Below, piece after piece: positions 30,774-56,315 of a stretch of DNA of 64,000 nt. This DNA is from Paramyrothecium sp. XJ0827 (Eukaryota; Ascomycota; Sordariomycetes; Hypocreales; Stachybotryaceae). The notes under the pieces are model-generated. The model was not told the DNA's origin. It searched no databases and saw nothing but the letters and a program-made list of their open reading frames with translations. The position numbers and the translations under genes were made by a program. The stretch spans positions 434,001 through 498,000 of the forward strand of contig JAJFPB010000006.1 in NCBI GenBank assembly GCA_020881915.1, in the 5' to 3' direction. Each line of letters starts with the position of its first letter. Within the stretch, counting starts at the first letter, position 1.

Positions 30774-30798
30774 TTCCTCTAATCCTCCAATCCTCCTC
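30774..30798. promoter_or_regulatory. Phased GGATTGNN motif, site A
   Basis: On the minus strand it reads GGATTGGA then GGATTAGA, two units at 8-bp spacing, preceded by GGA. It lies about 450 bp upstream of the first AsaB-like gene. The rest of the 30330-31043 gap shows no gene. Confidence 0.55.
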
Positions 30799-31043
30799 AC
30801 ATGCATTTATTTTCTGCAGCACAGCGTCTATGCTTACGGTTGAGCTTACAGTCTTACACTGGCTTGATGATCCATGCCGCCAAGAAGTACCCCAACGGCA
30901 CGCTGCAGGTCAGAGCGGAAACCGCGCGTCCTTAGTGGACAGGGCAAATCAAGACGTTTCAAGGACAAGGATCTCAAAAGGACGTCAAGGCAGTTGTGCT
31001 TGAAGTGGTAAGTGTTTTGGAAATAGTAGACAGTACCAAAGTC

Positions 31044-34000
31044 TTAACATCCAAACCCACTTCCTTCATCAAGCTTTCTATCCGACCTTTCATTCGAGAG
31101 GAAGCTGACAGCCGATTGGAACTCGTTGAGTATCTCATGCATCTCATCTTTGGAAACAACCCTATCATCGAACATGGCCCAGACAAACGCCCCCTTCTCG
31201 TCAAGCTTGCATTGGACAAGAATCGGGTACGGGGATAACTGGGCCTGCCGGTATTGCCCACTCACCTTTCGGAGGCCTGGAAAGCTGTCCGTCATATCGC
31301 TAGGCGCAACTACGAGGTTTGTTCGTAGGTGGTATTTGCCACGTATGTCAGACCTTGGCGACCCGTCCACCAAGAGAGGCCTCTGCTGGAAAGGTGCCAT
31401 TGCAACGCTTTGGTCTTGGGCAGCATGTAGATACTCCCCGATGGTCACATTCTTGTCAATGCATACACGAAACGGGGCTATTGCAACGGTGGGACCGGCA
31501 ACATCCGCGATCTCGGCCATGGCCTCGTTGCGGCCGCTGACGAAAGTGCCGAAGACGACGTCAGCAGACTGTTCATACCTGCTCAGGACCAACGCCCAAG
31601 CGGCGTGCAGTACTGTAGCCGCTGTAATTGGAGACGAGTTCCGGTGGGTGAACTGGAGTCGGAACTGGGTCCGGGCCTCACAAATTGGCAGGAAATCCGG
31701 ATGAGGATATGACGGGAATCGCGGCTGGGGAGCGTTGCAAAGGCACCGGTTCCAGAAATATTCAGAGGCATCGGCGTCTTTCGTCGTGAGATAATTGACG
31801 TAGTGCTTGAAGCCGAAGGTTGACGCAGGACGTTCGCCTCTGTAGTTTTGAGCCACCCGTTGAAAGATCTTCGCTATTGACCATCCATCGTAGAGTGCAT
31901 GATGCAGAACCAGCACGAATGTTCTGGATCCGGACTTTGTATCATTCACGATAGCATATCGGGCCAAGCGATCACCATAGCCCATTGGTAGCAAGGCCGC
32001 GCCGTGAAATATGTTTTCGAGAGATGATTCCCATATCCATTCAATTCTCTCTTTGAGTACGACTTGGAGACTTTGCAAGGCACTTAGCCTCACCAACCGT
32101 GTCCGTAGTATAGGCAGATGCCTCACGGCCTCCTCCCAAGCGGCGCAGAATCTGTCAATGTCATACTCTGGAGGAATTGCGTATGCCATTTTACCAACCC
32201 ATACGCGTGAGTCCTTGACGTGTGATTCCATCGCATCATGCTGCGCCGGTGTTGAGATGAAGAAGTCCTCCACCGCGTCCTCTTGACCGATGCATTGAGC
32301 AAATATTTGGCGAAGAAGGTCTTGTTCGGTACCGAAACCACTAGGGCGCAATGGGTCGGAAAGGTCCATATCGGAAGACTCCCTAACTGGTTCGATAGCC
32401 AGGACCATTTTCGACAACCTGGCGGTTTGGTAAACGTCTTCGAATCGCAGACCTAGTCCACATGCCCGGGCACTAGACACAAGTTGAATAGCCAGCAGCG
32501 AGTTGCCCCCCAATTCGAAGAAGTTGCTGTCCGTCATGATCATGTCAGCCTCGAGGCTGAGGACCTTGGCCCATATCGACTGCAGCTTCTTCTCTTCAGA
32601 TGTCAATGGGGCCATTTGGCCATTGTTAGTGTCCATCTGGGCCGCAATCTGTTCTTTGGATAGGCGTGAGCCCATATCGCGGAGGGCTGGTCGATCCAGT
32701 TTTCCAGACGTGGTCGTTGGCATCTTACCAAGGAAGACGAATATGGCTGGAATCATGTAGCTTGGAAGGACCCCAGACAATTTCGATTTGACTCTGCGAT
32801 TTACTTCCATGTCTTCTGACTTGAGGGCTGGATGGATTGCATTGTCAATCTGGATAAAAGCGGCGAGATGCTGCTTTCCAGCATTTCCATCGAGAGTGAT
32901 GATCTCGACAGCAACGTGTGAGTCTCCACCAGTTAGCTGAAGAAGAGCCTGCTGGATCTGGACCTCAATTTCTCCTGGTTCGATACGCTGCCCATGTAGC
33001 TTGACTTGCCTGTCTTTCCGGCCTACGATGTTCAATGAACCGTCAGTATTTTGACAGACAATATCCCCGGTTTTGTAGAGTCGCTGTGGTCTTTGATTGG
33101 GGCCCAGCCTCCGCGCCCAATCGGGAGCTGGGACAAAGGCCTGTGATGTTTTCTCAGTATCGTTGATATATCCTTGAGCCACTATAGGGCCTTCTATCAG
33201 CAGCTCACCCACAGAGCCTGGAGGTACAAGACTGTGATGATCATCTCGGTTCACAACCCAGACCCGTGAACCAATCATCGTGCCAATGTTCTCGGGATTC
33301 TTTGATGCTGGGAGAACCTCTCTCATCGTGCAGAGAACAGAGGCCTCAGTAGGGCCATACCCTTGGTTAAAATCCAATACGGGGCCCCATCTGTCACATA
33401 CAGCGTCTGTGAGCTTCTCGCCGGCACTAAACAGTGTTTTCAGTGATGGAGTATCTTCAGGCCGTAGTAAGAGTGCCACTGTGTTTGTCAGACATGCCCA
33501 GTTAACATTCATGGCTGTCATGGCCTCGGCCAGACCATCAACTCTCTGGCACTCCGATGGAACGCACACACAGCCGCCGTATACCAAGGTTGCGAGAATT
33601 TCCAAAAGACTGACGTCAAAGGAAAGTGAAGCAAACTGTAGAGCACGAGTTTTCGGACCCATCTTTACCCTCGTCTTCCAACTCATAATGGCCGTACTGA
33701 TTGACACGTGTTGCACAATAACACCCTTTGGTTGACCAGTAGAGCCCGAGGTGTACATCAGATAACACGCATCGGTAGGGCTCGTTGAATATTCCTCAGG
33801 AGCGTTTATCTCGGAGAGCCAATGCTTCATTGACGGGGAGACCAGAATGACATGTTCGACCTTGTGCATCATGAAAGGTGTTTTTTGTGAGACGAAGAGG
33901 ACTGTGGCACCAGTTTGCTTGATTATCTCCTCTACGCGTTGTTGTGGATGAGATATATCAATCGGGACAAACGCCGCACCAGCCTTGAGTATTCCCAGCA

Positions 34001-35000
34001 TAACAACAATAGTCCACGAGGATTTCTCAAGGTGAAATGGGACAAACATTCCTGGCTTAATACCCAAGTGCAGGAGGTGATGCCCTAACTGTGATGACAG
34101 ACGCTCCAACTCCTCGTACGAGAACTGATCGTCCCAAGAATATACTGCTGGCAAATTTGGAGCTTCTGAAGCAGTTTGAGAGATAATGTCATGGATACAG
34201 CGCTGCACTGATTGCACAGTTGAATGGTTCCATTCCATAATTTGTTGGAAGTCGGCTTCGCTCAAAAGATCAATTGATGCGATCTTTTGGGAAGGATCTT
34301 GCCTTATTCGCTCAAGAGCATTCTTATAGAGATTTCCCATCCTATTTGCGAGACTGTGCGATATTCCTTTGTAGTAAATCTGAAAATGGGCTGGGTAAAG
34401 AGCCGTACTATCAACTCCAATACTCAACTAGCAATTAATGAGTCAGTAGTGTCCGTAATCCATCCGTGTCGTAAAACGTACTTGAACCGATATGAACTCG
34501 TTATCGACAACAGCACCGGGGTGTTCATTCACATGAAAGAGAACCGAAGTGTCGAACAGTCGATGCCCAACCAGACTATGGATTCGCGACAAGCTATCTT
34601 TGGACAAGAAAGTATATGATCGATTGCGTTTTATGTTGGCTTCAAGTCTCTTGGTAAGACTATCAACGATGTCTTCATTTTCAATGTTTGCGAGAATAAC
34701 AGAATACTCGCTATCGGTTTGCTCAGAGTATGAACTGTCGACATGGGCGAAACACACACTGTTCATGCCTGCGTACAGTCGTAGAACGAGAACCCATGCT
34801 GTGAGGCAAATGTCTTTCCATGATGAACTGTAATTTGCTGATTTAGAACCGAATACGCCATGTTTTCCCATCGGAATTGCTACCACTCCCTGCTCGGGGT
34901 GCCCACTTCGTGATGTTGGAATAATGCAAGGTTCTGCATCAAGGAGGTAATCTCTCCAGAACTCTTCCGCTGATATTTTTGAAGGATTTAATGTTGCCAT
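31044..35000 (-). CDS. Monomodular NRPS (partial C - A - T - C)
   Basis: Two exons (35000-34482 and 34427-31044, 54-bp GTACGT...CTAG intron) give 1300 residues. Residues 1 to about 230 look like the C-terminal half of a condensation domain (EEFWRDYLLDAEPCIIPTS) and lack HHxxxDG. The adenylation domain spans about 245-760: YLMYTSGSTGQPKGV near 395-409, FDVSLLEI, NQGYGPTE, and TTSGKLDR with the catalytic Lys. The carrier domain has FELGGNSLLA with Ser 816. The last domain is a full condensation domain with HHALYDG (His 1015-1016, Asp 1020). No thioesterase or reductase is present, so release probably uses the terminal C domain. It should load one amino acid. The start at 35000 was chosen because the domain begins there; an upstream ATG at 35108 is possible. 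Confidence 0.9.
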
Positions 35001-35554
35001 TCTCGAAAATATTTTGAGTATGTTACTGTGCCAATATTTTGAGATGCAGAGACGGCCGACGGCATAACCTGTGTGAGCGGGTTGTCGCGAAGTTATGCAC
35101 GGGAACAAGTTTGGGACTTGCAGCTCCTCTCGTAAAGCCCGATTTTCAAGGAACGTGACTTATGAAAGCTATACAGCTATGGAACCATGCGATTACGATA
35201 GGCGGAATAGGTTCAATTTATAATATTCGATGGCTGTTACTTGACCTGAGCCTTTAAACCCCTTAAGAGGCGAATTCTGTCTTATAGATTAGTTGACGGT
35301 TGCGTGTACTTGAACATGATCACACTGCAAATCAAATATATTTTCTGAAATCCAAATATCACATTTTTACGTCAGTGTCAACTACATTCCTTAACCATTC
35401 TACTGGAAGCTCTTGAGACTGATGCATCCGGCAGCCTTCAAAACACACAAAATGGCTTGAGTAGACGTCTCTCACAATCAGAATGCATGACTGTATTCTG
35501 CCAAAGTAGGGGTCGATGTTCCACCTATCGTTAAGTAAATTAACTTCCAAAATT

Positions 35555-35602
35555 TGATTGCAGGATTGAGGGATTGGCGGATAGGCGGATAGGCGGATCA
35601 TG
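35555..35602. promoter_or_regulatory. Phased GGATTGNN motif, site B (six units)
   Basis: Consecutive 8-mers TGATTGCA, GGATTGAG, GGATTGGC, GGATAGGC, GGATAGGC and GGATCATG follow each other without gaps. The site lies between the NRPS and the citrate synthase gene, which are divergent, about 550 bp from one start and 220 bp from the other. The remainder of the 35001-35822 gap holds no recognised gene. Confidence 0.7.
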
Positions 35603-35822
35603 TGGCGGGGGTTGAGAACGGGTGGCGAACGCACCTCTCGTCACATCGTAAACCGTTTACTCGGTGCTTTGTACTCTTTTGGTTTTTCTAATGGTTACAA
35701 GACTAAACCTCTCCGAATTTTGGTAGGCGAACATTCGTCTTTTTACTCAAGCCTTGGACGCCCTCCTCCCGGTTTACTTTGCAACGAATCTCACCCATCC
35801 GGATTACTTTACCTATGCAATA

Positions 35823-37299
35823 ATGGTCGCGGCTAAAGGTAACCATCTGCATATTGTCGATTCCAGAACCGACAAAAAATATGAAGTTCCAATCGAGGAC
35901 AACTTTATTCGCGCGTCCGACTTGGCGGCTATCAAGGCTCCTTTGGTAGGAGATGAACGAGAACAAAAGCTCGGAATATTGGACAGAGGATTCGAAAACA
36001 CAGCCTGTATGGAATCTTCAATCACTAAAATGTACGTGAAAAACGTGGTGACGAGTGAATAACTCGATCTTTGCCCGTCCCTGAGAAGACTTCTAATGAG
36101 AGCATCAGAGACGGTCATCGTGGCGAGCTCCTCTATCGAAACATCCCTATTCAGAAGCTATTCCACGAGAATGACTTTGATGACGTCATGTACCTTCTGA
36201 TATGGGGCAAATTACCTTCTCTAGAGGAGAAGAAGGCAATGCGTAATGCCTTGTTCCAATACTCCAGTCCACCTGAAGTTGTCATCTCAGTGATCAGGTC
36301 TTTCCCGTAAGTGCTCAGATCGATACTCAGACATGACACTAACGTCCAGCAGACGGGATGCAGATCCTTTTGCACTAACTATTGCAGGACTCAGTGCCTA
36401 TGCGGCTGCGGACGAGGAGGTCGTCACTGCCCGCCATGAGCCTCGGCCAACGTACCACAACAGCCCAGAGGCAGTTGACAACGCGATTCTGAGGAGCATC
36501 GCATATGTAATGGTTGTTTTTGCTCTTGTATACTGCCATCAGCAAAACAAGCCATTTACACCCCCAGGGGCCAACCAGTCTCTGCTAGGAAATATGCTAA
36601 TCATGATGGGGTTCGAAGTGTCGGACGACCTGAAGACGCATGCGGGCAAGAGGCTGCATTGCCTTCAGAAATTATGGATTCTCTATGGAGACCATGAAAT
36701 GACAAACTCTACCGCCGCCTGTCTTCATGTTGGATCAACTCTCACCGACCCTATCTCGTGTGTCATCGCGACCATTGTGAGTGGAGCTGGACCACTTCAC
36801 GTCGGAGCCATCGAGATGGCGTACAATGTCCTCGACAGGATCGGCACGCCTGATAAAATTCCTATGTACATCAAAGCGGTCAAGGACAAGAAGTTTAGGC
36901 TTTTCGGTTACGGCCACCGCGTGTACAAGACGCGTGACCCGAGAGTTGATCTACTGTACGAGCTCTTGAAGGAGTACAAAGATCTTGTAGCCTCAAACCC
37001 ACTGCTGCAAGTGGCGCTGGAGATTGACAATACTGCCAACACGGATCCATACTTTGTTGAGCGGAACCTCAAAGTCAATGTAGATCTATTCGGCTGTTTC
37101 TTGTACACTGCATTTGGCTTCAAGCAGGATATATTAGTCGGGCTGGTGGCTATATCGCGAATCCCCGGCGTCATGGCTCATTGGCGGGAGGCAATGGGTA
37201 AGTCACCATTCCATTCCTAGGCTGGCATTGCTAACCAAGAAAATAGGCCAGTCAATTAAGATCTGGCGCCCACGTCAGAAGTATAGAGCTCAGCTTTGA
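35823..37299 (+). CDS. Citrate synthase-like enzyme, probable alkylcitrate synthase
   Basis: Four exons (35823-36031, 36109-36306, 36353-37197, 37247-37299) give 434 residues in consistent phase. Spliced exon 1-2 reads ITKIDGHRGELLYR, the family's ITxIDG entry. Catalytic residues are present: His 250 in DHEMTNSTA, His 324 in GYGHRVYKTRDPR and Asp 367 in ANTDPYF. The GPLHVGAIEMA loop binds CoA. Citrate synthases condense acetyl-CoA with oxaloacetate. Copies inside fungal PKS clusters are known to use longer acyl thioesters and make alkylcitrates (maleidride, squalestatin and related pathways), which I infer here. I see no obvious mitochondrial presequence from this start. The start ATG is uncertain, because the frame is open 99 bp further upstream without an ATG. 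Confidence 0.88.
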
Positions 37300-37625
37300 G
37301 GAACAATTACCATAGTTTTAATATCGTGTTCAATATGCCATATCACTTCAAGTCTCTAAACAAGCTGATCTTATTGTGTCAATCCCCACGTAGCGATTAC
37401 CTCAACTGAATCTCTGTAGTCTCCCGACTCTACTGCATCTCGATCCCAAAGCAATTAATCATCGATAATTACTGCTACTCTGCTATTGCATTACTGCATG
37501 ACGTGTGCCTGTGTAATGTATTAACAGCCTCTACGGGGAAAATCCATACTACATTTGGCTCTCGGCAGACAAGAAAGCCGGCTATGTCATGTTGAATTTC
37601 TCTGCAGCTCTAATGTGAATCCCCG

Positions 37626-37667
37626 TATCCTTCTATCCTCCAATCCTTCAATGATTGCATCCCCTCC
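37626..37667. promoter_or_regulatory. Phased GGATTGNN motif, site C
   Basis: The minus strand reads GGATTGAA, GGATTGGA or GGATAGAA-type units in 8-bp register (ATCCTTCTATCCTCCAATCC on the plus strand), followed by a less regular ATTGCATCC. It lies 300-340 bp upstream of the beta-lactamase-type gene. Confidence 0.6.
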
Positions 37668-37763
37668 CTGCCTCTGGGGGTTCTACTAGTTCTCGCCAAG
37701 CCTGCTTCTGCTGGTGCTACCCAACGGTGCATCTGTTTACTTATCCATGTAATCTATATTTAT

Positions 37764-37782
37764 CGCATCCTTCAATCCTTTA
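37764..37782. promoter_or_regulatory. Phased GGATTGNN motif, site D
   Basis: The plus strand reads GCATCCTTCAATCCTTTAG, that is GGATTGAA then GGATG on the minus strand. It is the second site in the promoter of the beta-lactamase-type gene. Confidence 0.5.
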
Positions 37783-37963
37783 GTGCCACTGAATTTACAA
37801 ATGTAGGTTGCAGCATTGGGTATGTATACCTTAATTGTACTAGTCTTGTCATCACCATCTAGAGGTCATCGTAGTTTGCTTCATGGATGTCTTTGAGTTG
37901 CGCGAGATCATCAGCTTTCATGCATAGTAACTATTGAAAGTATATAGGTTCTGTGTCGAAGCT

Positions 37964-39905: not shown

Positions 39906-40084
39906 AGACATACAATATCGCAACTGAATCCTGGTTAACTAGGAACCTTAGCTTGGTATTAAAACTTCGCTAGTGAAAGTCATTGCAACCTGGTACATGC
40001 TAAGAAGGGAACAGCATATCGGCAAATTTTTGGGTGGCCAGGCTCAAAACCTGGCTTGCCCAGGCAAGCACATGCCAGGCAGAA

Positions 40085-40103
40085 CTGGAGGAATGAAGGA
40101 TAA
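40085..40103. promoter_or_regulatory. Phased GGATTGNN motif, site E
   Basis: The plus strand reads CTGGAGGAATGAAGGATAA, which gives GGAATGAA then GGATAATA. It is about 225 bp upstream of the NmrA-like gene. The flanks on both sides (39906-40325) show no gene. Confidence 0.45.
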
Positions 40104-40325
40104 TATTGGTTCTTATCTGTTAAGTTTAGCCTACGGGTATTGGACGGGTGAATGGCTTGTATTGTAGCAGGGAACAACCCATTAATGGCCAGTTGGCTCA
40201 TTATAGGTGCCTACTGCTTTGTGATTATGCCCACTCAGCGCAAACAGTCTGCTCTTGACAACTTGTACTGCAGTTACAATCATTATCACTTCCTTGTCTA
40301 ATCAAAGTTATCTCTCCAATTCGCC

Positions 40326-41264: not shown

Positions 41265-41547
41265 AGAGCAGAAATCTCGCGTAATTAGTTTATCATTCTC
41301 AAAGAATAAGCGAATAATAAGCTAAAATAAAATCAACCACTATTCTTTTGTCTCATTTTGAACTAATAAACTTGTTCTTTGGTTTCAGTTCTTATCCGTA
41401 GAGCTCAATAAAATATATACCGTCCTCTACTTCTGGTACTATTACCAGGTTTCTGTTATATCTCTCATTTTGACTGAATTAATAGACCAATCACCTGACT
41501 TTGGCTCACTATCTGGTCCTAGACGAGCCTCTTGTCTTGTCCCTTGT

Positions 41548-43265: not shown

Positions 43266-43536
43266 TTTGAAACTAGTATGGTGTGTATTGTTTCAGGAGT
43301 CGAGAGGCTGGATCGAATGGAGTTTGTCTTTGAATGTGAGGAGTTCTAAATATATTCATCTGAGATGAGGCATAGCGGAGATCACGGGGAGTCGACGTCT
43401 TTCATGCTAGATACTGCCCGCACCACTACGCCAGCACGAACCTCGGCTGGTTGTAACAATGTCGTAAACTGCCGTGAATTTGTTTTTTAGTTTGTAATTT
43501 TACTTCTTATCAAAATGCATTGAGCAAGTGATGGTA

Positions 43537-43566
43537 CATCCTGCAATCCGCCAATCCTCCATTCCC
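43537..43566. promoter_or_regulatory. Phased GGATTGNN motif, site F (four units)
   Basis: The minus strand reads GGAATGGA, GGATTGGC, GGATTGCA and GGATG in exact 8-bp register. It lies in the divergent gap between the P450 (start 43265) and the hydrolase (start 43955). No gene is supported elsewhere in that gap. Confidence 0.68.
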
Positions 43567-45014: not shown

Positions 45015-45109
45015 GCGAGTCGAAGGTATCATAGGCTTTACAATTGAGCACGGACACTCGAAGTTAACTTCATTCCACTGAAAGTAAATTGGATGAGCTC
45101 TTTATCAAC

Positions 45110-46997
45110 TTATTCAACCCTATCAGAGTTTTGAACATCCCCATTCTCTTCCTTCTTCTCCTTGAGCATAAAGCAGACTCCTGCAACACCAATACCGTAG
45201 ATTCCGGCCGCGACGAAGTATGATAACCCAACGAGATACCCCCCAGCTTCCAGACCCATAGAGAATGATAGAGCCAGAAGGGGTGTTGAAATGATTAGAG
45301 CAATACCCTCGAAGACGGATAAGGTGGTATAGAGGGTAGCAAGTTGGGATTTGGGAAGGAAACACGTCATGTAGGACCTGAGCACCGAGCCGTATCCGGC
45401 CCCTAGTGTCCATACAATCATAGCTAAGAGTCATTAGTATATTTCCATACTTTAGACCTGTCTTACCTACGCGGCATGAACCAGATATCTGTTGTTGCGG
45501 TTCCCATTCCAACGCATCCCAATACGCGACATATAATAGTTATCCTTGCAAGGATCAGATTTGCTGTTGAGGTGCTATGGCAATGTTATCAGAGTTTGTT
45601 TGAATATTTCTAGATAGGGAAAATGAAGGGTTAGGGTTAGGAATCATGGGGTTGTCTATTAGAAGCTTGGAGAGTCTGGTAGAGGATGGTATGAAGACAG
45701 AACTTATACGCACTGATTCCTTTTTAGCAACATTTTGTAACCAGCTGGAAGAATAAGAAGAAACAGAGGGAGTTGAGATGCTGCTTTAAGTGACAAAAGG
45801 AAGTTTGCCTATCAAAATGGTCAGCTTGCAGACATATCGTCGCTGCAAACACCTCAGCCTACCTTGCGAAGTGGCCAACCGAACTTGGCAGACATGTATT
45901 GCAACGTTACATCCATAATAGGTCGAGTTAACTTCTGGACAGCGGCAGAGACCAGGGCAACGGCGACAGCTCTTTGAGAAAGCATGCTACGCATGTCCCC
46001 AACCACCGAGGCAAAGAGTCTGGTGAACCAGCTCTTGGGTGCAGGTGCAACGGATGTGCTGGAAGGATCTTCTACATCATTCGTGCCGTTGGTTTGTCTA
46101 TTTTGCTTCCTCTCCTGCTTTGTCATTTCTGGTAGGAAGAATACGATGAGAAACCCGACCGCTTCCATCGGGATTCCGATGATGAAGGCAATGTAGGGGC
46201 CAAGTGCTTTCATTAAGAAAGATCCAGCTGGCGGCGCAAGAAGCTCAGCGATAAAGAGAGTAATGTTCATGTAAAAGAAGGCTTGGGTCCTAAGACCTGT
46301 TAGTTATCACGCGAAACTCCTCGCACTCCCTTGTGACTCGCCTAAAACTCTCTGGTACAGCTCCAGCCACAACGGCCAAGAGTGTTGCGTTCATGATGAT
46401 TACGCCTCCGCCAATGACGGCAAATGCTGGCGCGGCGAGAACTGCACGAATCGGAAATATCTTGTAGAAGTAAAGGACCAAGAAGGTGAAAAGATCACCT
46501 GACATGATACCAACAAGACTAAGTGCAGTGACCAGTCGTCGGCCATAGGCATCCGCCAGCAATCCATAGGGAACGGCCAGGATCAATCCTGGAAGGTTCT
46601 CCAGCATAGATAGAGTTCCCCTAATCCGTGCAAGGCGGCTTTGTATGATTGGAAGTTTGCATAGTTGCTCAGGAATGTTGCCATCGGTGTCGATGAGCTC
46701 AGGCTGGGTTCCGCTGTAATATTCGCGGCATAGGCCGAGTTCTAGAATGCGTATCTTGGCGGCCTGGCCCATGAACATAGGAAAGCTAACAAGCAAAACA
46801 AACAGTATGCAAAGATATAGCGTAGCTCGACTAGAGAGATATTGACCGATATCTTTGGCCAGTTTCGCAAGCCGCAACCAACAGCGTTCGAGGACTGACG
46901 GACCGCTGGAGAAAGAATGATTACAATCGCTTCCGTTGTGATTATCGTTGTCAAGCAATGGGGATGCTTCAGTTGGTGAATGATGTGAGGTACTCAT
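45110..46997 (-). CDS. MFS transporter 1
   Basis: Five exons (46997-46342, 46289-45863, 45808-45714, 45574-45471, 45423-45110) give 531 residues. The frame holds about 12 hydrophobic segments. After a soluble N-terminus, the first helix is TLYLCILFVLLVSFPMFM, and the inter-helix loop LLADAYGRRLV matches the MFS signature. A large cytosolic loop (KQERKQNRQTNG) separates the halves. It probably exports the cluster product or a precursor across the plasma membrane. The first intron appears to start with GC (AG/GCGAGT), a rare but accepted donor, because this alone restores SFRTQAFFYMN. The fourth-exon junctions are less certain. No phased motif is present in its own upstream gap (46998-47536). 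Confidence 0.8.
45628..45641. repeat. Short telomere-like repeat inside an intron
   Basis: GGGTTAGGGTTAGG, just over two TTAGGG units, lies inside the 139-bp third intron of the transporter gene. It is far too short to be a telomere, and real genes continue on both sides. Confidence 0.6.
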
Positions 46998-47536
46998 CGT
47001 TGCAAATATCTTAACAAGAGTATTGTCGGTGGTGGTGGTTCTCTGATAATTGTAGCACTACACGTTTGGGCATAAGATTGGGGGGGCGTTCAAGGGTTCT
47101 TATATGAGAAATTCCACTATGTGTGCGTACATAAGCCCCAATTAGTGCGTCATGCCCCCCTCAGGGCTGGCTAATTGATGGTCAATAGCCATTAGGAGTA
47201 AGAATTCCTAGTCTGGGTACGAGTTCAACGACTATCGAGCATACAGACGAAAGGAGATGGTTCCTGGGTTACAATCTCATCTAGTCCCGATTGGTCTGAA
47301 GATTACTGCCGTAGGTACTCAGGTTTTGCAGTCTCTCCTACCATAGTTTGTTATTTCAGCGCCTATTTTTGAAGTGGGTTTATTTTTGGTAAGCTCAGTC
47401 TTGGGTGCCTTATGAGAAAGAGGCTCTAACTAGGAGAAGATATGCAGCTCTTTGACAATCCTCGTTTGTGCATATTCAACCAGAACTAGTCAAGGCAAAG
47501 CTAAACCCACCCAGCTCATCTCTTTGATTCCTTGCC
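46998..47536. other. Intergenic gap between transporter 1 and oxygenase 2
   Basis: About 540 bp with no supported gene, no recognisable repeat and no phased motif. It contains the promoter of the transporter and the 3' end of the oxygenase gene. Confidence 0.5.
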
Positions 47537-48439
47537 TCACCAAAAGACCAGAGTGCGAACCTCGATGGACTTCCTCGGCAGCGCATCTTGTGGTGTATTG
47601 TCATCCCAAAATGCGCTGTGCGGTTGAACGTAGCGCACATCCGTATCAAAGGATGAGAAAACCAGTGCCTCGTTAGGAGTCATGTTGCTAGCATAATGAT
47701 ATATGTATCGTGAATCGTGCTTGACCAGACAGTCATAAGACTTCTCGCCGCGGTGTTCGACTCGGGGATCGTTGTGGTTGTAGATGCGTCCTGTATAGTT
47801 CTCATAGTTCCAATCAGGAATGCGGTCATGGTTCATAAAAGTTAACGGCCACTTCTGAACCATGTTCTCAATGGGTCGCCAAACGTTAACTTGAGCCCAT
47901 CTCTTGGACTGCTTCATCATCTCGGCTGCTTTTTCTTCACCCAGAAGATCGTTCAACACTGTAATGGCAGTCGTTGGATCACGATCAACGTGGGCAACTG
48001 GACGAGGCCCGTGGCTACCGGCTTCTGCAAGGACCTTGATCTTGGGTGCGTTGGGATCAATGTTCTTCTCTTTGTCTTGTCTGACGCGGAATGAGACAGG
48101 AAATACAAGTGATGAGCCTGTCATACGCTCAACCAGCTTGCGACATTCCTCGTAATAAACATCGTGAATGAACGCTTTGCCGTCGGACGAGTCGCTACCC
48201 AAGAATTGCTCTGTGGTAACACTTGTCGGTTCATCCACTAGCTCATATCCATTTTCCTTGTAACTGGGCTTGGGATCAAGATGTCTAATATCTTGTGCAG
48301 TGATGTCTAATGTGTAGGGTGGAATCAAATTTGACGTGGCATGCTTGTAGTCGATGTAGCCATCCCTGCCATCCTTCGTTCCACCCCAGACAGTAATTGT
48401 GCCGGTGGTAGAAGTCGGGAGTATGCTTGCAGTCGTCAT
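47537..48439 (-). CDS. AsaB/CmcJ/NvfI-like iron oxygenase 2
   Basis: A single exon of 300 residues, paralogous to the oxygenase at 29.4 kb. Both share GTxxxWxGTKDGxxGYID, HVDRD (here His 150 and Asp 152), NVWRP, a WPL block and the C-terminal PHxAFWDDNTPxDAxPRxS followed by IEVRTxVF. The family is associated with iron-dependent oxidation in secondary metabolism. The start was set at 48439 (MTTASILPTS) because this aligns with the other copy. An in-frame ATG 159 bp upstream would add a hydrophobic, basic 53-residue leader with no counterpart. The copies differ enough that they may act at different steps. Confidence 0.85.
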   Translation of the reverse strand: MTTASILPTSTTGTITVWGGTKDGRDGYIDYKHATSNLIPPYTLDITAQDIRHLDPKPSYKENGYELVDEPTSVTTEQFLGSDSSDGKAFIHDVYYEECRKLVERMTGSSLVFPVSFRVRQDKEKNIDPNAPKIKVLAEAGSHGPRPVAHVDRDPTTAITVLNDLLGEEKAAEMMKQSKRWAQVNVWRPIENMVQKWPLTFMNHDRIPDWNYENYTGRIYNHNDPRVEHRGEKSYDCLVKHDSRYIYHYASNMTPNEALVFSSFDTDVRYVQPHSAFWDDNTPQDALPRKSIEVRTLVFW

Positions 48440-48690
48440 TTTGATGCAGATTCGATGAAGAATGAATAAGAAGAATGATTCTGCTTTCTTTTTGGCTACT
48501 GGTGTTGCGGTGAACCGAAAGATGTGGAACAAAAGCCTCAGACACAAGCCTGCTGCAAACACATATACTCGCGACAACTTTTTCATGGTCTGATTCACTC
48601 CAGGAGACTATTACACTTACAACAAGATAATCGTACGTTCAACGACTCACAAATGCTAAGAGATGCCATTGATTTCCGAGGCTGTCGAAC

Positions 48691-48714
48691 ATAGGAGGAT
48701 TGAAGGATAGATGG
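48691..48714. promoter_or_regulatory. Phased GGATTGNN motif, site G
   Basis: The plus strand reads ATAGGAGGATTGAAGGATAG: GGATTGAA then GGATAGAT in 8-bp register. It lies in the divergent gap between oxygenase 2 and the FAD monooxygenase. Confidence 0.6.
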
Positions 48715-48796
48715 AAAAATCCAGTCTGAACGCCCTATTGGCAAGCGTCATTGTGTGCTGATGCTGGGGTCAAATGATATTTGGTGGATGGACAGC

Positions 48797-48830
48797 ATAG
48801 GATTGCAGGATTGGAGGATTGAAGGATGGG
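48797..48830. promoter_or_regulatory. Phased GGATTGNN motif, site H (best array)
   Basis: GGATTGCA, GGATTGGA, GGATTGAA and GGATGGG follow each other without gaps; three units keep GGATTG exactly. This is the cleanest example in the window. It is about 360 bp from the oxygenase start and 205 bp from the FAD monooxygenase start. Confidence 0.72.
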
Positions 48831-49033
48831 AAGACCAGCGGAGGAAAGACCAGCCGTTGGGTGGGCAACTAGGAGCCTAAATGAAGGGAAAAACTAACAA
48901 CTAAGAACTAGGAGATAGGAACTTCATGCTCAGTTAAAATTCACCGCGAAGTCGAATACAATTCGAGCGGCAATCAAGCATATGATTTCCCCGCATTGCG
49001 CATATTGTAGATACTCAAGTGCCTCACAACAGC

Positions 49034-50320
49034 ATGGATTCAAGCAAGAAGCTCCGCGTCGTGACTGTAAGCCAATTTCCATTTCAAAGTGCCGCTCACG
49101 TCCTGACATACTTACAGATTGGAGGCTCATTGTCTGGTCTTATGAACTCCATAGTCCTACTTCGAGCTGGCCACAGTGTAACAATCTATGAGCGTTGGGC
49201 GAAGCCCTTCTTGAACGGCCTTCACAACGGTGTGGTTGTTGCAGGGGGGGTGGCGTCTTTCATGTCCGACTACGACACAAGCAAGACGCCATTGTCAGTT
49301 ACCCATCGCGAAAGGGTGACATTGGATCGAGAAGGAGAGACCATAAGCAGAGAACAGTCCGCGGAATCAATGACCAGTTGGGATCTCCTTTACGGAATTT
49401 TGAGAGAGCACTTCGATGGCGAGAAGAGTGATTATATGGGCGGCGGGAGGAACATGGAAAAACCGGAGAGTGCCAAGGGCGTGTATCGTCACGGGCACAT
49501 CGTCAAAACAATGAATGAGGTGCCAGATGGAGTCGAGCTGGAGATCAAAAATTCAAAAGGAGCGATTGAGAAAGTGCTCGCTGATGTGGTCATTGTATCA
49601 AATGGCCCGTCGTCGGAGTTTAGGCCACCTCTTCTACCAGGCGACGCTGTTCGCTTTTACCCAGACTACATCGCGTTCCGCGGCAATGTCGTCGAATCAG
49701 AGCTGTCCGAATCACAATTGGAGTTCTTTTCAGGGAGATATCTGACTTATCAGGGTCCTCTGACCCGGGTGGTTGTATATACCGTTCCTGGCCGCGCAGG
49801 GAGCTTGGAGGCGGGCGAACGGCTCATCAACTGGGTTTGGTATGTGTACTGCAAGGTCACACCGGACGCAATTGAAGAATACGATAACATCTTCAAAGAC
49901 ACGGCTGGAATCGTACATAACTATACGCTCCCCTCTACCGGCTCCGGGGGACGCATTCGGCGAGATATATGGTCGACACAATTGGAGCAAGCCCGCAACC
50001 AGCTCCCGCCTCAACTTGAGGAACTTATTTCCAAAACGAACGAGCCTATAATTGAGGCTCTCACAGACGTGAATCCTCCAGCGAATGGCCGCTGTCATTT
50101 TATGGGAAGTAAAGTGGTCCTCGCAGGAGAAGCACTATGTAATTTCAGACAGCACACAGGAGCAAATACGAGTCAGGCAGCTCTCCATGCTGATTTACTC
50201 GCGAAAGTCTTGGGAGGAGACGATTATGGATTGGAACAGTACGACCAAGATGCAGTCAAGTTTGCAAAGGAATGGCAAGGCCCTGGAATTCGCATGGGTG
50301 CTTTCATGCCGTCACAGTAA
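49034..50320 (+). CDS. FAD-dependent monooxygenase
   Basis: Two exons (49034-49066 and 49118-50320) give 411 residues. Joined, the N-terminus reads RVVTIGGSLSGLMNSIVLLR followed by AGHSVTIYER. This is the FAD ADP-binding GGSLxGL fold with the acidic end of strand 2. The middle VLADVVIVSNGPSS matches the second dinucleotide contact. The late motif KVVLAGEALCN resembles the GDA motif with Glu replacing Asp. The group includes aromatic hydroxylases and Baeyer-Villiger-like enzymes. The 51-bp intron is a multiple of three and lacks a stop, so the unspliced frame is also open, but it would break the FAD-binding loop. The shared divergent promoter links it to oxygenase 2. Confidence 0.85.
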   Translation: MDSSKKLRVVTVSQFPFQSAAHVLTYLQIGGSLSGLMNSIVLLRAGHSVTIYERWAKPFLNGLHNGVVVAGGVASFMSDYDTSKTPLSVTHRERVTLDREGETISREQSAESMTSWDLLYGILREHFDGEKSDYMGGGRNMEKPESAKGVYRHGHIVKTMNEVPDGVELEIKNSKGAIEKVLADVVIVSNGPSSEFRPPLLPGDAVRFYPDYIAFRGNVVESELSESQLEFFSGRYLTYQGPLTRVVVYTVPGRAGSLEAGERLINWVWYVYCKVTPDAIEEYDNIFKDTAGIVHNYTLPSTGSGGRIRRDIWSTQLEQARNQLPPQLEELISKTNEPIIEALTDVNPPANGRCHFMGSKVVLAGEALCNFRQHTGANTSQAALHADLLAKVLGGDDYGLEQYDQDAVKFAKEWQGPGIRMGAFMPSQ

Positions 50321-51850
50321 CTATATTGATAAAGATTAATGATAGATTTTGCCACCATTCAAAATGATCCAACCCACTTCACAGTGTCTAAGTAACTTCA
50401 AACAGTTAAATTAACGTGATAGTATCCTCGTCACATTTTTCGAACCAAGTATACATATCTGCAAACCGAGCGGCCACTGGTTCTCGAAATCTTTTGCGAA
50501 CTGTGCCTCGAAGTGTAGGGCGGGACAAGTAACAAGACACAGATGCAAGTGTAGGTACCCCTCTATTGATACCTTAACAAAATGCCTACATAGACAGCCT
50601 CAGAAAAGTCCTGATTACCAATCTCAGGCTCTTCAACGTGCCTTAGGCCAAGCGCAAGAAGAAGAGACATCTTCCTCCCCTGAATGCCGAATCCATCAAG
50701 TTCTCAGGCGTCAGAAAAAGCACGCAGCGGCAGAAAGTCTTGGGGGCTCCTAGAGCCAGGTAGACTTCGCCAATCGTAATGTTCTTCACCATCATCAGAC
50801 CACTATTGCTTCCATTCAGCTGTCTTCATGCTGCCACAGACTCTCAGTCCGCCAGAATCAACCGCTCCACGCTTTGAAACGTGCACCTTCAACTTGATAT
50901 TAGTATCAATGACTCTCATGTCCTAAGGGTGTTTGTTGGAGCTGTCTTAGTCCCAACCCTTCCTACGGAATGGAGTGAAGGACATGTTGCCATCGACAGA
51001 CACTTAAGTCCAGGATGGACCTTGAAACAGAGTTGGCCGCTCCCCAGTACATCTCTAAATGTGCTAACAGAGGTCTAGAGGGGAAAACCAGCTCCATAGC
51101 CCCGCCAGATACTGGCCCGAAAAGACCCCTGAGTATTAAGATTTGACTCAAAAACAGCACACCTACCAGCCTGTCAGTAGATATAAGATCATTTGATCGA
51201 AGTAAAATCTGAAATTGAGAAAAAGAAGATATAAAATTGGTACCTAATAAGCTAAAATAGGAGCTAATTTCCCTTCTTTAAATATAAGAAACTAATAAAG
51301 AACCCCTAAATTAACTCTAGGGTACCCAAGCAAGTGCATTTCCTTTCCACCAAATCACAGTATCTCTCCGCAATGGCTGGGATGGGGAGGACTTGGTCAG
51401 TCTTGTGTGAAATGGCACGGCTTGTGTAGGAACTAAGAAATCTCCGCCATGTAAGAAGTAAGAACTGGAGTTCCACCCCGGTCCCATCTTTGCGTCGGGG
51501 TAAATGAGCTCTGAGGGCAGGCTTTCTCCGCGTCCTTCGCTGTATTCCGCATCAGAGGTCCAACCATCGCAGTGAGCAGAGGTATTCGTTCTTCAAATGA
51601 AACGTGTTTGCCCATGCATCAAACTGGATGATAAGACGCGCCAACAACCGTTCCTGCATGCTCCAGGTTCGCATATCAAGGCGCTCCTCGGGCGTACGTT
51701 CAACTCTCTCAGAGAGTCACAGAACCTATTTCACCCTTCTTGCATCTGAATAGCAACTGGAAGAATTTGTCGGTGGGGTCTGTTTGACGATTGAGAAATT
51801 CGCTTTGTGCATCTTTTGCAGAGCTCAGGCACGGGAGTGGGTTCAATGGA
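50321..51850. other. Intergenic stretch, possible gene remnants only
   Basis: No convincing gene is present. On the minus strand near 50.45-50.83 kb short protein-like pieces appear (GEVYLALGAPKTFCRC, and RKRFREPVAARFADMYTWFE) but stops and missing motifs prevent identification. The 51.2-51.3 kb part is A+T-rich. It may be a decayed gene between the cluster halves. Confidence 0.35.
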
Positions 51851-52000
51851 GCTGGCCGCAACGGAGCTGGAGCCTGAGACAGGCGTGGAGAAGAATCTGG
51901 AAGCCGCCGGGCTGGATACCACGGGGCTCGATGCCACAGAACGAGATACCACGGATTTGGATAACACGGGGTAGGAGACCAAGGAGCTGGTCACAAAGTG
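51851..52000. repeat. 15-bp minisatellite, about ten units
   Basis: Units related to GCTGGATACCACGGG begin every 15 bp (51851, 51866, 51881 and on to 51986). On the plus strand this reads as a pentapeptide-like series (DTTGL, DATER, DTTDL), broken by a TAG at 51971. On the minus strand it lies inside a 196-codon frame and reads as a Ser/Val series. I do not consider either frame a proven gene. Confidence 0.7.
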
Positions 52001-52313
52001 GCTCGTTATCGGAGAAGTAACTGGAGGCGGGTCCAAGTGAATAGGGTTAGGACTCGTGACGACTACGACCGACGTCTCTGTGTGGACGGGACATGCCCAG
52101 TTACGAGCGAGTACCGACGGAGATAAGGGCGAACGAAACGGTGGGGCGGCCCATCCTGTAAAATGAATGACTGCCCGGAAACCTGGGTTGAAGGTGAAAG
52201 GAGCGAATGCATGAAAAGAGAGACCAGAGTCGTGAATATCATTAGTTTGTTTGAAATAATGCAGAGGTATGGATGTTGACCGGCGAGTTCCGATCAAAAG
52301 TAATACAGAAATA

Positions 52314-53366
52314 TTATTCATGTGGTTTTATGACAAGCTTCATGCCACTCACTCCTTGCTTGCTCATATCAAGGGCATGGTCCACACTTTCCAGACCACC
52401 AATGACTTTGACCTTGTTAGGCGTGAGTAGCTTTTGAGCTAGCCAGCCATCAGCACCACCAGTAGCCTTCATAAAAGGCTCAGAGACATATCTTAATTTT
52501 GGCAGTGACCCCATACCCATTATCCCCTTGATACTCACGGGGTATTTTGTATCCTTGGAGATTTCAATTGGGGGGGTTACTCCTAAGAGAGCCACGACCT
52601 TTCCTCCCTTCAGCTGTCGGAGGATATCAACACCAAGCAATTGCGTTTCATCTGTCGAGATGGCATCGACGACGTAGCTCGACTCTAACCCAGCTGTAGC
52701 TGTTGCATAGTCTTCGGGTGATGAGGTTGAACGGTCGAAGACTGCCGTGGCTCCCAGGCTTTTGAGAGCGGCAAAATGAACGGGGGAACTGTTCGCTATG
52801 ATCCTTGAGAATCCTGAAAGTCGAGCCAGCTGGATTGTATATTGGCCCACTGAACCAGAGCCACCCAGGATGATGATGCATTTTCCACGCCCGGCGTCAT
52901 GACCACGTTCAGTCCATGGCGGCTCGAATCCATGGCCGTTTGGGGCGTAAAGTGCGGTAACAGCTGCCATTGCTGCCACGCATACGGATGAAGCTTGTTC
53001 GTCAGAGACGTTCAGAGGAGTCTTGCCCACAAGTTCAGCAGGCATTTTGCAGAGCCCCTGGAAGGTGGAGTTGTCGATTTTGCCAATTATACCCTGGAAG
53101 AATACCCTCTCGCCCACTGCAAAACTATCTACCTCTTCACCAGTATCAACGATTTCTCCAGCGCCATCGGAACCTAACACCGCCGGATATTCAACCGCAT
53201 TTGCGTGGAGATCTCTCAACTTCCAGTCAGCAGGATTGACACTGGCAGCGGTGACCTTGATGAGGACTTCTCGGGGGCCAAGTTGAGGGGTTGGTCTGGT
53301 GTCAATCTCATGCGATGTGTTGAAGGTTCTCAACAAAGCTGCACGATGTAAGGCGGTATGCGACAT
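52314..53366 (-). CDS. Zinc-type (MDR) dehydrogenase, ToxD-like
   Basis: A single exon of 350 residues. The N-terminal GroES-like half reads VLIKVTAASVNPADWKLRDL, then YPAVLGSDGAGEI and GERVFFQG. The C-terminal Rossmann half has IILGGSGSVGQYTIQLARLS. This medium-chain reductase subgroup includes ToxD-like and trans-acting enoyl reductases of fungal clusters. Structural zinc cysteines are absent, as in quinone-oxidoreductase-type members. The PKS here already has an ER domain with intact motifs, so a trans-ER role is not required. Reduction of another double bond or an aldehyde is possible. The upstream gap 53367-53807 has no phased motif. Confidence 0.88.
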   Translation of the reverse strand: MSHTALHRAALLRTFNTSHEIDTRPTPQLGPREVLIKVTAASVNPADWKLRDLHANAVEYPAVLGSDGAGEIVDTGEEVDSFAVGERVFFQGIIGKIDNSTFQGLCKMPAELVGKTPLNVSDEQASSVCVAAMAAVTALYAPNGHGFEPPWTERGHDAGRGKCIIILGGSGSVGQYTIQLARLSGFSRIIANSSPVHFAALKSLGATAVFDRSTSSPEDYATATAGLESSYVVDAISTDETQLLGVDILRQLKGGKVVALLGVTPPIEISKDTKYPVSIKGIMGMGSLPKLRYVSEPFMKATGGADGWLAQKLLTPNKVKVIGGLESVDHALDMSKQGVSGMKLVIKPHE

Positions 53367-53807
53367 GGTTAGTAATCAGCCAATGATCTGTCTTGCTGTC
53401 TTTGGAGACTCTTGAGTGGTTGAAGAGGCAGGTAAAACCAGATACCAAGGAGAAAGATGGCAGGGTAGTAAAACGGGGAGACAGCGCCCTATTTATATAT
53501 TTTCCGTCTATACTGCTTACAAATACGCTCAGGTATGATTTGTGACTTTGTGTTCCATGCCTTGCAGCATGCAGTTTTTGTCATGAGCATCAATGTTAGG
53601 AAGGACGAAGTAGATTTATTTACAGCCACATGTTACCTAAATGGAGCTAGAGACCGGCTACTTGTTGGATTTGATGAAGTCTTGATGTACAATTAGTGAG
53701 TTCTGGCTATTTAGGGTTTATATTCTATGAGACTCATTCTCGTAAGTTATCGTTCTATGAACAATCATACTGCCGTGATTGTCGAATAACCAGCTTCTTG
53801 ACTGGTC

Positions 53808-55503
53808 TCAATTTCTTGGCCTGGGCGACCCATGCAATGTTACTCCTGTGACTGTTAGTTCAACCTCAGTGCTTTCCTCTGTTCCTGGTGGCCGCGAATC
53901 AAGCCCTCGATCATGCCAGAAAAGGCAACCGAGTATGGTGAATGCGCTGATAGCGGTATTCACGATAAAAACATGCCGAAATGACGAATTATAGGCTGGT
54001 ACAAGTTCACCACGAGTGGTCGAATTGATCACCGGTAAGGAATATACTCGGCTGGCAATTTCCCTATGTTGATCGGGAAGAGACGATTTCAAACTGGCCT
54101 GTAAAATGGCAACGGATGCTGCAACTCCACAGGCGCCCCCGAGGAATCTGAAGAACGTCCGCGCTGAGATGACAACTGCACTCATGTCTTTGGATGTATG
54201 TGCTTGTAGTGCCACCACGATAGGCTGGTTAGAATTGCCTACGCCTACCCCGAAGACGGCGAGTATCACGGCGATGACCGCCGGGCTCGTTTTGTGGTCC
54301 ATAATGATCATTAAGCCCGATCCAAGGAGACAGAACAGCACTCCCAGTCGCAGGACTCCGCCGTACCTGTGCTTGTCTGATATGTATCTGCCACTGGCTG
54401 CAGAAACAATAACTTGCACACCAGTAATGGCCGTCAATAAGCCGGCAGAGCCCAGAGGGCTCCATCCCCGGAGACTTTGAAAGTACACGGGCAGAATGTA
54501 AGTGCTCGCTTGATACACCCAGCCAACGAGAAACGTCTGAGCGAACAGAGCACATACATCCCGAGTTTTGAACATAGATACTGATAGAAATGAGACACGG
54601 TACAAGTCATAGAGATTTTTGAAAACTCACGAGGAAATATAGGAAGACTTGCCCATTTCTTCTCAACGAAAAGAAAAACGATAAAAAAAAAGGCGCTTAA
54701 GGACAACATGCTAATGGCCAGTGCTGAGTCCCAGGGAAAATATACGCCCCCGCATGATATGGGAATCAGGAAGAAGATGGTCGTAACGGTTGAAGTAAAC
54801 GAACCTAAGTAGTCAATCTTTTGGACATTTAGCCAAAAACTATCAGTCGGCGTGGTTGACGGGTATGTGATAACAGCTGTGAGAGCAGCTAATGTGCCCA
54901 AGGGCGCCATCAACCAGAAGAAACCCCGCCACGTGGAGCTATACGTTGAGTGTTAGACTTGAAGCTAGGGAAGGCGTCGTGGTCTTCTTACCTTTGAGCA
55001 AAGCCTGCAGCAATGAAAGGGCCAATAATATTACCCATTGCCATGAAACTGCCGGCAATACCTTGATATTTGCCCCTTTCAGCCAGTGAGATCAAGTCAC
55101 TCGTGATGATCATGGCCAGGTTGCCAACGCCTCCACCTGAAAGCCCCGTAATGGCGCGGAAGACATATAACATCGGGCCATTCTGGGCGAACGCGCATGC
55201 CAGTTCACCGGCCGAAAAGACGAGCAAGGCGCCAACGAAGAGCACTTTTCGGCCAAAAATGTCCGAGAGCCGCCCGTTAAGCATGGAGAAGACCGCTGTG
55301 GCCACAAATGACGCTGTTCCGGCCCAAGAAATGGAATTTCCCGCCTTTAAGTCGTGGCCAATGATGGGCAGGATCGTCGAAATACCATTAGTGTCCATAT
55401 TCACAACACCAAGGATTATACCGGACGTGAATATCAGCGTCCATTTTTGCCGCCTAGTCAGGGTTCTTTCCTGCTGATGCAATTTTGGTGCTTGGTTGAC
55501 CAT
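53808..55503 (-). CDS. MFS transporter 2 (multidrug-type, DHA2-like)
   Basis: Three exons (55503-54992, 54938-54631, 54580-53808) give 530 residues with phases that match. The first helix IFTSGIILGVVNMDTNGIST, the loop GRLSDIFGRKVLF, the RAITGLSGGGVG segment and STWRGFFWLMAPLG are typical of fungal drug:proton antiporters with 14 helices. It probably exports the cluster product and may confer self-protection. It is divergent from the PKS across a gap that holds several phased motif sites, so both may share regulation. Confidence 0.9.
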
Positions 55504-56013
55504 GGCTAGCTACAATAGAGCACGAGGCTGATCATAAAACGCTGGAGCTGCCAGCAAGGACGGCGAAGCAGAGATCTGCAGGTGTTCAGAGTGAAATCAT
55601 ATCCAGTACTCGCCACCCGGGTATGTAAGGGTAACGTGTTTCGTCGATAAGAAGGTAATAAATAATAAAAGTTCGGTAAATCAACTTGACAGGGGAATGG
55701 GACCTTCATTGCATGATTCATGTAGTAAACATCAGCAGCAACCCACTCACCGGGAGCGGAGTTTCGCATCCAGATTCTGTTTCCATGTTCAATTACTTAA
55801 AACGGCTTAGCTAGTTGATCCTTCACGATGGGATCGGCATCATACAGTTCTTACAGTAATCATGACGAGGCGCGTCGTAAATGCGACAGGTTTGTGACAA
55901 TAGGCTAACTATGCCTCAAAGCTTTTGAAGAATGAAAGCAGCCAAACTGTTACATAGAAGCCCTCGTAACAATAGTTCAGCTTCCCAAAGCGGCACCAGG
56001 CTATGTGGCGACG

Positions 56014-56056
56014 TTGAATTGGAGGATTATGGGAAAGGAGGAATGCAGGATTATCC
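56014..56056. promoter_or_regulatory. Phased GGATTGNN motif, site I (five units)
   Basis: GAATTGGA, GGATTATG, GGAAAGGA, GGAATGCA and GGATTATC follow in exact 8-bp register. Individual units are diverged but the phase is kept over 40 bp. It lies between MFS transporter 2 and the PKS. Confidence 0.58.
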
Positions 56057-56180
56057 ACCTCGATTTGACCAATGACGAAGCCTTTATTGACGTTGGGCAC
56101 AAGATCTTGTGATCCGAAGCAAAGAAACGCATACGGTACTACACCCATCGATTACTTGCATAAAGAATGGCCACTTATCA

Positions 56181-56200
56181 ACCAATCCCTCAATCCATTA
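56181..56200. promoter_or_regulatory. Phased GGATTGNN motif, site J
   Basis: The minus strand reads GGATTGAG then GGATTGGT, two units in 8-bp register, about 500 bp upstream of the PKS start. Confidence 0.55.
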
Positions 56201-56292
56201 TATCTACGCCTTGGAGCTGAGCACGTGTCGTAGCTGAGGGGTATCTCAGAGATAGTCTTCAGTCCCATATACTTTGTGTGGGGGGTTGACTT

Positions 56293-56315
56293 GGCGGAGG
56301 ATTGGAGGATTGTCC
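56293..56315. promoter_or_regulatory. Phased GGATTGNN motif, site K
   Basis: The plus strand reads GGCGGAGGATTGGAGGATTG: GGATTGGA then GGATTGTC in 8-bp register, with a preceding GGC. It is about 380 bp upstream of the PKS start codon. Confidence 0.62.

Follow-up and report, generated by a model that had tools for sequence, protein, structure and literature searches.

Alkyl-citrate biosynthetic gene clusters yield inhibitors of squalene synthase and of phospholipase A2, and one of them, the ctr cluster (cinatrin and CJ-13,982), is reported from all 47 Hypoxylaceae genomes examined and is called cryptic (PMC13178491). Its transcription factor is named ctrR2; the main text does without the term C2H2 and its sole "promoter" is a cloning promoter (PMC13178491). 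The alkyl-citric-acid cluster of Aspergillus niger likewise has an in-cluster regulator, the Zn2Cys6 protein AkcR with its PF04082 domain, and the term "binding motif" is absent from the main text of that paper (PMC7338620). Here we describe a related cluster in a 64,000-nucleotide stretch of the fungus Paramyrothecium sp. XJ0827 (GenBank assembly GCA_020881915.1, contig JAJFPB010000006.1, positions 434,001 to 498,000; hereafter the window). This cluster has citrate-synthase and oxygenase types in common with the ctr cluster, although it carries a polyketide synthase (PKS) and a nonribosomal peptide synthetase (NRPS) where the ctr cluster has a fatty acid synthase (FAS). Its promoter gaps hold short direct arrays of a GGATTG-like unit repeated every 8 bp, which we consider likely to be tandem operators of a two-finger C2H2 regulator encoded within the cluster, at positions 28464 to 29204. 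The regulator common to this cluster and to a second one in the same genome is of C2H2 type, in contrast to AkcR.

Phased arrays in the promoter gaps of the window cluster

Contig C12, one of 15 in a genome of 51.8 Mb, contains the window, whose biosynthetic cluster spans, by Pfam matches and reading frames, about 28 to more than 57 kb. Gene limits are given throughout as those of open reading frames, which take no account of introns. An initial annotation had named eleven places in the cluster at which GGATTG-like units stand in exact 8-bp register, and every one of the eleven does hold at least two such units (W below is A or T):

30762 to 30793, minus strand: four GGAW units in the promoter gap of oxygenase 1
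35555 to 35602, plus strand: five GGAW units and a TGATTG unit in the divergent gap between the NRPS and citrate synthase genes
37615 to 37646, minus strand: four units in the gap 5' of the beta-lactamase-type gene
37763 to 37778, minus strand: two units in the same gap upstream of the beta-lactamase-type gene
40090 to 40105, plus strand: weak array of two units in the gap 5' of the NmrA-like gene
43534 to 43565, minus strand: four units in the divergent gap between the P450 and hydrolase genes
48697 to 48720, plus strand: three units in the divergent gap between oxygenase 2 and the flavin adenine dinucleotide (FAD) monooxygenase
48800 to 48831, plus strand: four units in the same oxygenase 2/FAD monooxygenase gap
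56016 to 56055, plus strand: four GGAW units and a GAATTG unit in the divergent gap between MFS transporter 2 and the PKS
56181 to 56196, minus strand: two exact units in the same MFS transporter 2/PKS gap
56299 to 56314, plus strand: two exact units, again in the MFS transporter 2/PKS gap

The weakest of these arrays are those at 40.09 kb (GGAATGAA GGATAATA) and 37.77 kb (GGATTGAA GGATGCGA), and the array at 48800 to 48831 contains the sole exact GGATTG triple among the genome matches listed. The 8-bp phase proved to be as first described, but the unit is not a fixed sequence: it is degenerate, reading GGAT or GGAA, often with TG following. The arrays had also been described as limited to intergenic DNA of the cluster. 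This is so for longer runs, since the seven runs of at least three GGAW units at 8 bp in the window cluster all lie between frames taken as genes, but it does not extend to two-unit matches, which occur elsewhere at about chance level. Two-unit matches with two mismatches are also found at 22288, 36257 and 57091 of the window, and GGAW pairs at 8 bp lie inside cluster frames too (for example at 31691, 39778 and 48367). As the initial annotation had stated, there is no array in the gap 5' of MFS transporter 1 (47058 to 47536) or beside the zinc dehydrogenase (53376 to 53807); a scan for GGAW runs also found none 5' of the C2H2 gene at 28464.

The phasing exceeds what random sequences show. Compared with 30 Markov-1 sequences, the window contains 13 arrays of two or more units (up to one mismatch per unit to GGATTG) against 3.4 expected and a maximum of 7, and three arrays of three or more units at the same tolerance against 0.03 expected and a maximum of 1. 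Periods of 6, 7 and 9 to 15 bp yield one to five arrays each, none of them with three or more units. Within the eleven gaps of the C12 cluster (6913 bp), same-strand GGAW pairs number 26 at distance 8, 15 at distance 16 and nine at distance 24, and zero to two at each distance from 4 to 40 that is not a multiple of 8. In 1000 random sets matched to the gaps in length and drawn from outside the clusters, the distance-8 count has a mean of 0.95 and a maximum of 5, against the 26 observed. When all 4-mers are ranked over distances of 5 to 40 in these gaps, GGAT/ATCC at 8 comes first with 17 pairs; the random maximum for any combination of 4-mer and distance is 12 (100 random sets).

Genome-wide distribution and a second cluster

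Arrays that were equally frequent in unrelated promoters would, according to the initial annotation, mark a general microsatellite rather than a cluster signal. The genome scan answered this in two parts: runs of three units are nearly confined to two clusters, whereas two-unit matches are frequent elsewhere. Counts from these repeat searches are lower bounds, to be read as "at least". All four genome matches to exact GGAWTG triples at 8 bp fall in the two clusters, two in the window cluster and two in a locus on contig C8. With up to one mismatch (GGAWTGNNGGAWTGNNGGAWTG), there are 13 such triples in 51.8 Mb, five in the window cluster, six in the C8 locus and two elsewhere (C7 and C9); when overlapping matches are merged, these 13 become seven places, three of them in the window cluster and two in the C8 locus. 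Allowing up to two mismatches raises the number of GGAWTG triples at 8 bp to 57 (control, 17), and a search for GGATTG triples at this tolerance gave 23 matches, seven in the window cluster and four in the C8 locus (control, 1). The exact pattern GGATTGNNGGATTG has 15 matches, six of which lie in the window cluster, and its reversed control pattern has 2. Triples at a period of 9 bp, with up to one mismatch, have three genome matches, none in either cluster (control, 17).

Shorter matches behave differently. Because exact GGAWTG pairs are frequent across the genome (62 matches, with seven in the window cluster and four in the C8 locus; control, 17), single or double units are nonspecific, and it is the runs that are specific. 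Outside the clusters, two-unit GGAW runs occur eight times in 95 kb of C12 and 16 times in 74 kb of C8, and there is no run of three or more GGAW units at 8 bp in those 95 kb of C12 or anywhere in the 169 kb of DNA flanking both clusters. As a candidate for a third array-bearing locus we considered one further close GGAWTG pair (C10:4711214 and C10:4728669, 17 kb apart), which by a rough estimate is about what chance would give, and we set it aside.

The C8 locus (5918000 to 5944000) was discovered through the motif alone, by the triples with up to two mismatches, and by its genes it looks like an alkyl-citrate-type cluster. Pfam identifies MFS, citrate synthase, FAS beta and FAS alpha frames. 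There is also a C2H2 gene whose zf-C2H2 match falls just under the Pfam cut-off (22.1 versus 25.2 bits), an oxygenase frame with 41% identity over 164 amino acids to oxygenase 2 of the window, and an FAD-dependent oxidoreductase for which two frames match DAO, the one exceeding the cut-off and the other falling short of it. Runs of four, seven and six units stand 5' of the MFS, FAS beta and FAS alpha genes, respectively, and the MFS array reaches eight units with AGATTG and AGAATG counted; the gap between citrate synthase and oxygenase holds two weak two-unit runs. A weak two-unit GGAW pair 5' of the C8 C2H2 gene (C8:5918489) is taken as chance, so that the absence of an array at the regulator gene is strictly true of the window only. 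The GGAW run scan found no phased run 5' of the C8 FAD gene, which joins the window C2H2 gene, MFS transporter 1 and the zinc dehydrogenase among the genes with array-less gaps.

The test on C8 covered five gaps, a set to which those 5' of the C2H2 gene and of the FAD gene do not belong. Four of the five contain GGAW pairs at 8 bp, as do 7 of the 11 gaps on C12. The pre-set GGAW count at distance 8 in the C8 gaps is 18 against 0.74 (maximum 5), and among pairs of 4-mer and distance GGAT at 8 once more ranks first, with a count of 9 that is within the random maxima (up to 12). Since the C8 locus was selected for the motif, its gap count is not independent evidence; its gene content and its C2H2 regulator lay outside the selection criteria. 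The initial annotation had also named a lack of conservation in orthologous clusters as a refuting outcome; within this one genome, the C8 cluster has phased arrays of this kind along with a homologous C2H2 gene.

Across both clusters we counted 19 arrays in 11 of the 16 gaps, and judged four of them doubtful (43244, C8:5925084, C8:5934338 and C8:5940904). Tandem units in numbers that vary from two to seven per array are also what a chance-expanded intergenic minisatellite with no regulatory role would produce, and the phase could plausibly have arisen by replication slippage. However, the spacer bases vary between units, copies lie on both strands, and most of the gaps are occupied. The longer runs do not occur regardless of gene function, as those of a microsatellite would, but keep almost entirely to two clusters whose regulators are related, and the flanks are free of them. 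We therefore reject a microsatellite origin for runs with at least three units, and find the minisatellite explanation as a whole scarcely credible.

A candidate two-finger C2H2 reader

Both clusters contain a candidate DNA-binding protein of C2H2 type, and the genome holds five members of this family with E below 1e-5. Two of them are needed here by position:

28464 to 29204, plus strand: two-finger C2H2 protein of the window cluster, from the first ATG in an uninterrupted frame
C7:3598598 to 3598786, minus strand: third paralog in the C2H2 family, identical to the window protein at each of the three contact positions named below

The window protein has no Pfam match, zf-C2H2 included. It shares 55% identity over 76 amino acids with the C8 protein, covering both fingers and a tail, and beyond those 76 residues the two proteins have no convincing alignment. 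In the frames read, the tail, RIRRYSNGRxRP, occurs only in the window and C8 proteins among the five; it is absent from those of C7, C9 and C14, where an intron could hide it. No array is listed near the C9 and C14 paralogs in three pattern searches. The window and C8 C2H2 genes have their closest homologues in Hypoxylon, Hypomontagnella, Xylaria and relatives, and short fungal C2H2 homologues are mostly catalogued as hypothetical. In an alignment of 30 sequences, made up of the window and C8 proteins and 28 of 38 homologues, 27 columns are invariant, including most of the tail, and N171 and R174 of finger 1 and R197 of finger 2 are the same in all 30.

An AlphaFold (AF2) model of the window protein contains two beta-beta-alpha fingers, with helices at residues 169 to 183 and 198 to 206, and disorder elsewhere (predicted local distance difference test score 58.9 overall, with block means of 78 to 92 over residues 151 to 210). 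Counted from helix starts at 169 and 198, N171 stands at +3 and R174 at +6 in the helix of finger 1, while R197 takes position -1 of finger 2, a finger of the form C-x2-C...H-x5-C. Under the C2H2 recognition code, in which Arg reads G and Asn at +3 reads A, the modeled N171, R174 and R197 predict G-G-A, the same core on which the unit counts were based. The Asn and Arg at the contact places of the C8 protein align with the Asn and Arg of a designed DSNR finger (PDB 1a1f). Foldseek gave 183 matches, all of them at E of 0.001 or above, and the 50 matches listed are zinc-finger structures.

We propose that one C2H2 protein would occupy each 8-bp unit, TG-N-A-G-G-A-W, with finger 1 (Asn +3, Arg +6) reading GAW, finger 2 (Arg at -1) reading the preceding G, and the basic tail, which is RIRRYSNGRxRP in most members, possibly contacting TG. 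With one protein per unit, neighbors would follow one another head to tail and share one register, so that several units would gather several copies. We infer that the 28464 protein binds in this way, one molecule per 8 bp, and activates, and that its paralog would act likewise in the C8 cluster. With finger 2 placed upstream of finger 1, the unit would extend 5' from GGAW, and it is probably better written TGNAGGAW, of which GGATTGNN would be a circular shift. Before the first GGAW of an array, 36 of 57 positions retain the T, G or A of TGNA, against 20 of 57 after the last and 87 of 132 inside the arrays; the 5' and 3' flanks differ with a Fisher p of 0.005, or 0.006 without the four doubtful arrays.

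The initial annotation had offered two in-cluster candidates as readers of the arrays, the gene at 28464 and a Zn2Cys6 gene at 22129 to 23325. The first is strengthened by the C8 homologue beside arrays, while the second has lost ground. Zn2Cys6 proteins often govern fungal clusters, and the 22129 product is a Zn_clus protein encoded about 7 kb from the first array, yet its gene lies about 6 kb outside the stretch of array-bearing genes. A pattern scan found no Zn2Cys6 motif inside the C8 cluster, the only one that it gave in 100 kb being at C8:5905759 to 5907858, 11 to 13 kb from the C2H2 gene. Furthermore, Zn2Cys6 proteins mostly read CGG half-sites, and these are not in the array unit. For want of a counterpart in the C8 cluster we disfavor the 22129 protein, and think it very unlikely to be the reader.

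A factor encoded outside both clusters could also read the arrays, whether of homeodomain or Myb type (GGATTA/GGATTG), GATA or CCAAT-binding, and the C2H2 genes would then be coincidental. Some units do hold GATA (GGATAG) or, on the opposite strand, CCAAT (GGATTGG), K50 homeodomains read TAATCC, and one global factor could drive both clusters. However, GATA and CCAAT are present in just a fraction of the units and do not account for a period of 8 bp, and the sites of a global factor should be spread over a larger number of loci, whereas 11 of the 13 strict triples belong to these two. The contact residues of the modeled C2H2 protein, moreover, appear to match the GGA core already. On balance, we consider an outside factor improbable, if less so than the Zn2Cys6 protein.

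Several observations weigh against the 28464 protein and its C8 paralog as readers of the arrays. Two-unit matches are frequent genome-wide, with 51 of the 62 exact pairs outside both clusters. Finger 1 has the form C-x4-C...H, with no evident fourth zinc ligand. The C7 paralog carries the same contact residues, and no array is listed near it in the three pattern searches (the sequence read at that locus covers 1 kb). The 5' and 3' flanks differ only modestly, the idea of the register was drawn post hoc from the units, arrays within one cluster are not fully independent, and the evidence comes from two clusters in one genome. Finally, of the seven runs in the window that have at least three units, five stand in divergent gaps between two genes, where the gene served is ambiguous. 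We nevertheless hold that the arrays are probably operators of the in-cluster C2H2 proteins: the motif is found in most cluster gaps, and strict runs are rare elsewhere. A more tentative suggestion is that separate two-finger proteins line up every 8 bp, imitating head to tail one long multi-finger chain, and that, since the unit is common to both clusters, each regulator may also act on the other's cluster, so that PKS- and FAS-based pathways would be coordinated.

Cluster genes and described systems

The window cluster contains, by Pfam and reading frames, an NRPS with adenylation (A), thiolation (T) and condensation (C) domains, a citrate synthase, a beta-lactamase-type enzyme, an NmrA protein and a P450, together with an alpha/beta hydrolase, an FAD enzyme, a zinc dehydrogenase, MFS transporters and a PKS. 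The genes that bear on the comparison are as follows:

36092 to 37220, plus strand: alkyl-citrate-synthase-like gene (PF00285), limits approximate
31044 to 35108, minus strand: NRPS, with the A, T and C domains within 31044 to 34427
56683 to 57942, plus strand: first long frame (ketosynthase) of the PKS, whose gene continues past this frame
29433 to 30329, minus strand: oxygenase 1, a frame without a Pfam match
47537 to 48598, minus strand: oxygenase 2, a frame without a Pfam match
22129 to 23325, plus strand: Zn2Cys6 gene (Zn_clus in Pfam), outside the stretch of array-bearing genes
C8:5941346 to 5943300, approximate, minus strand: C8 FAD gene (DAO)

The frame at 34443 to 35108 has no Pfam match and is assigned to the NRPS by position alone; likewise, MFS transporter 1 (45123 to 47057) takes its name from the initial annotation, and the frame tested gave no Pfam match. 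The two window oxygenases share 42% identity with each other and may be of the MfR1/MfR2 type.

Compared by kinds of genes, the C8 locus has the same gene set as the published ctr cluster of Hypoxylaceae: FAS alpha, FAS beta, ACS, non-heme iron (NHI) oxygenase, FAD enzyme, transporter and transcription factor (PMC13178491). In the published study, CtrL2, the counterpart of the C8 FAD gene, gave no new compound (PMC13178491), with which the run-less C8 FAD gene fits as a single case. The window and C8 clusters each probably make a citrate-derived compound. Another citrate-synthase gene lies at C15:3042079 to 3043274 on the minus strand, in two matched pieces, and may be a third alkyl-citrate locus. 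No strict array is listed near it, the nearest triple match being 108 kb off with two mismatches, and none of the C2H2 relatives with E below 1e-5 is listed in its neighborhood.

A testable regulator-site pair would be of use for alkyl-citrate clusters, as a known operator and its regulator would offer a way to study when the cryptic ones switch on. If our reading is true, it would also supply a first site for a family of short fungal C2H2 proteins, and the RIRRYSNGR members of that family would have a readable site by which to find their targets. In the literature searched we found no description of this phased 8-bp motif, although a passing mention is possible where the letters occur one to three times per paper.

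The two-finger domain of Tramtrack offers a structural comparison. It reads AAGGAT with Asn at +3 and Arg at +6 of finger 1, contacts identical to those that we propose for the 28464 protein; we did not find this Tramtrack site confirmed in the literature. Like the proteins described here, it has two C2H2 fingers (PDB 2drp), and the match is weak (profile E 0.76; Foldseek E 0.38 to 0.56). In PMC5127561, AGGAT is found solely within a primer.

Operators within a cluster for the cluster's own regulator are well known as a type; what we have not found described in the literature searched is their arrangement, for this C2H2 family, as direct arrays in strict 8-bp phase. Fungal cluster regulators usually use single or palindromic sites, such as the AflR operator TCG-N5-CGA, and a study of gliA reportedly describes a C2H2 protein as a cluster regulator. 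The system proposed here resembles those of AflR and the gliA C2H2 protein in that a pathway regulator would have short sites in the promoters of its own cluster. It differs in the form of the sites, which are single or palindromic in those systems and here are two to seven direct units in strict 8-bp phase.

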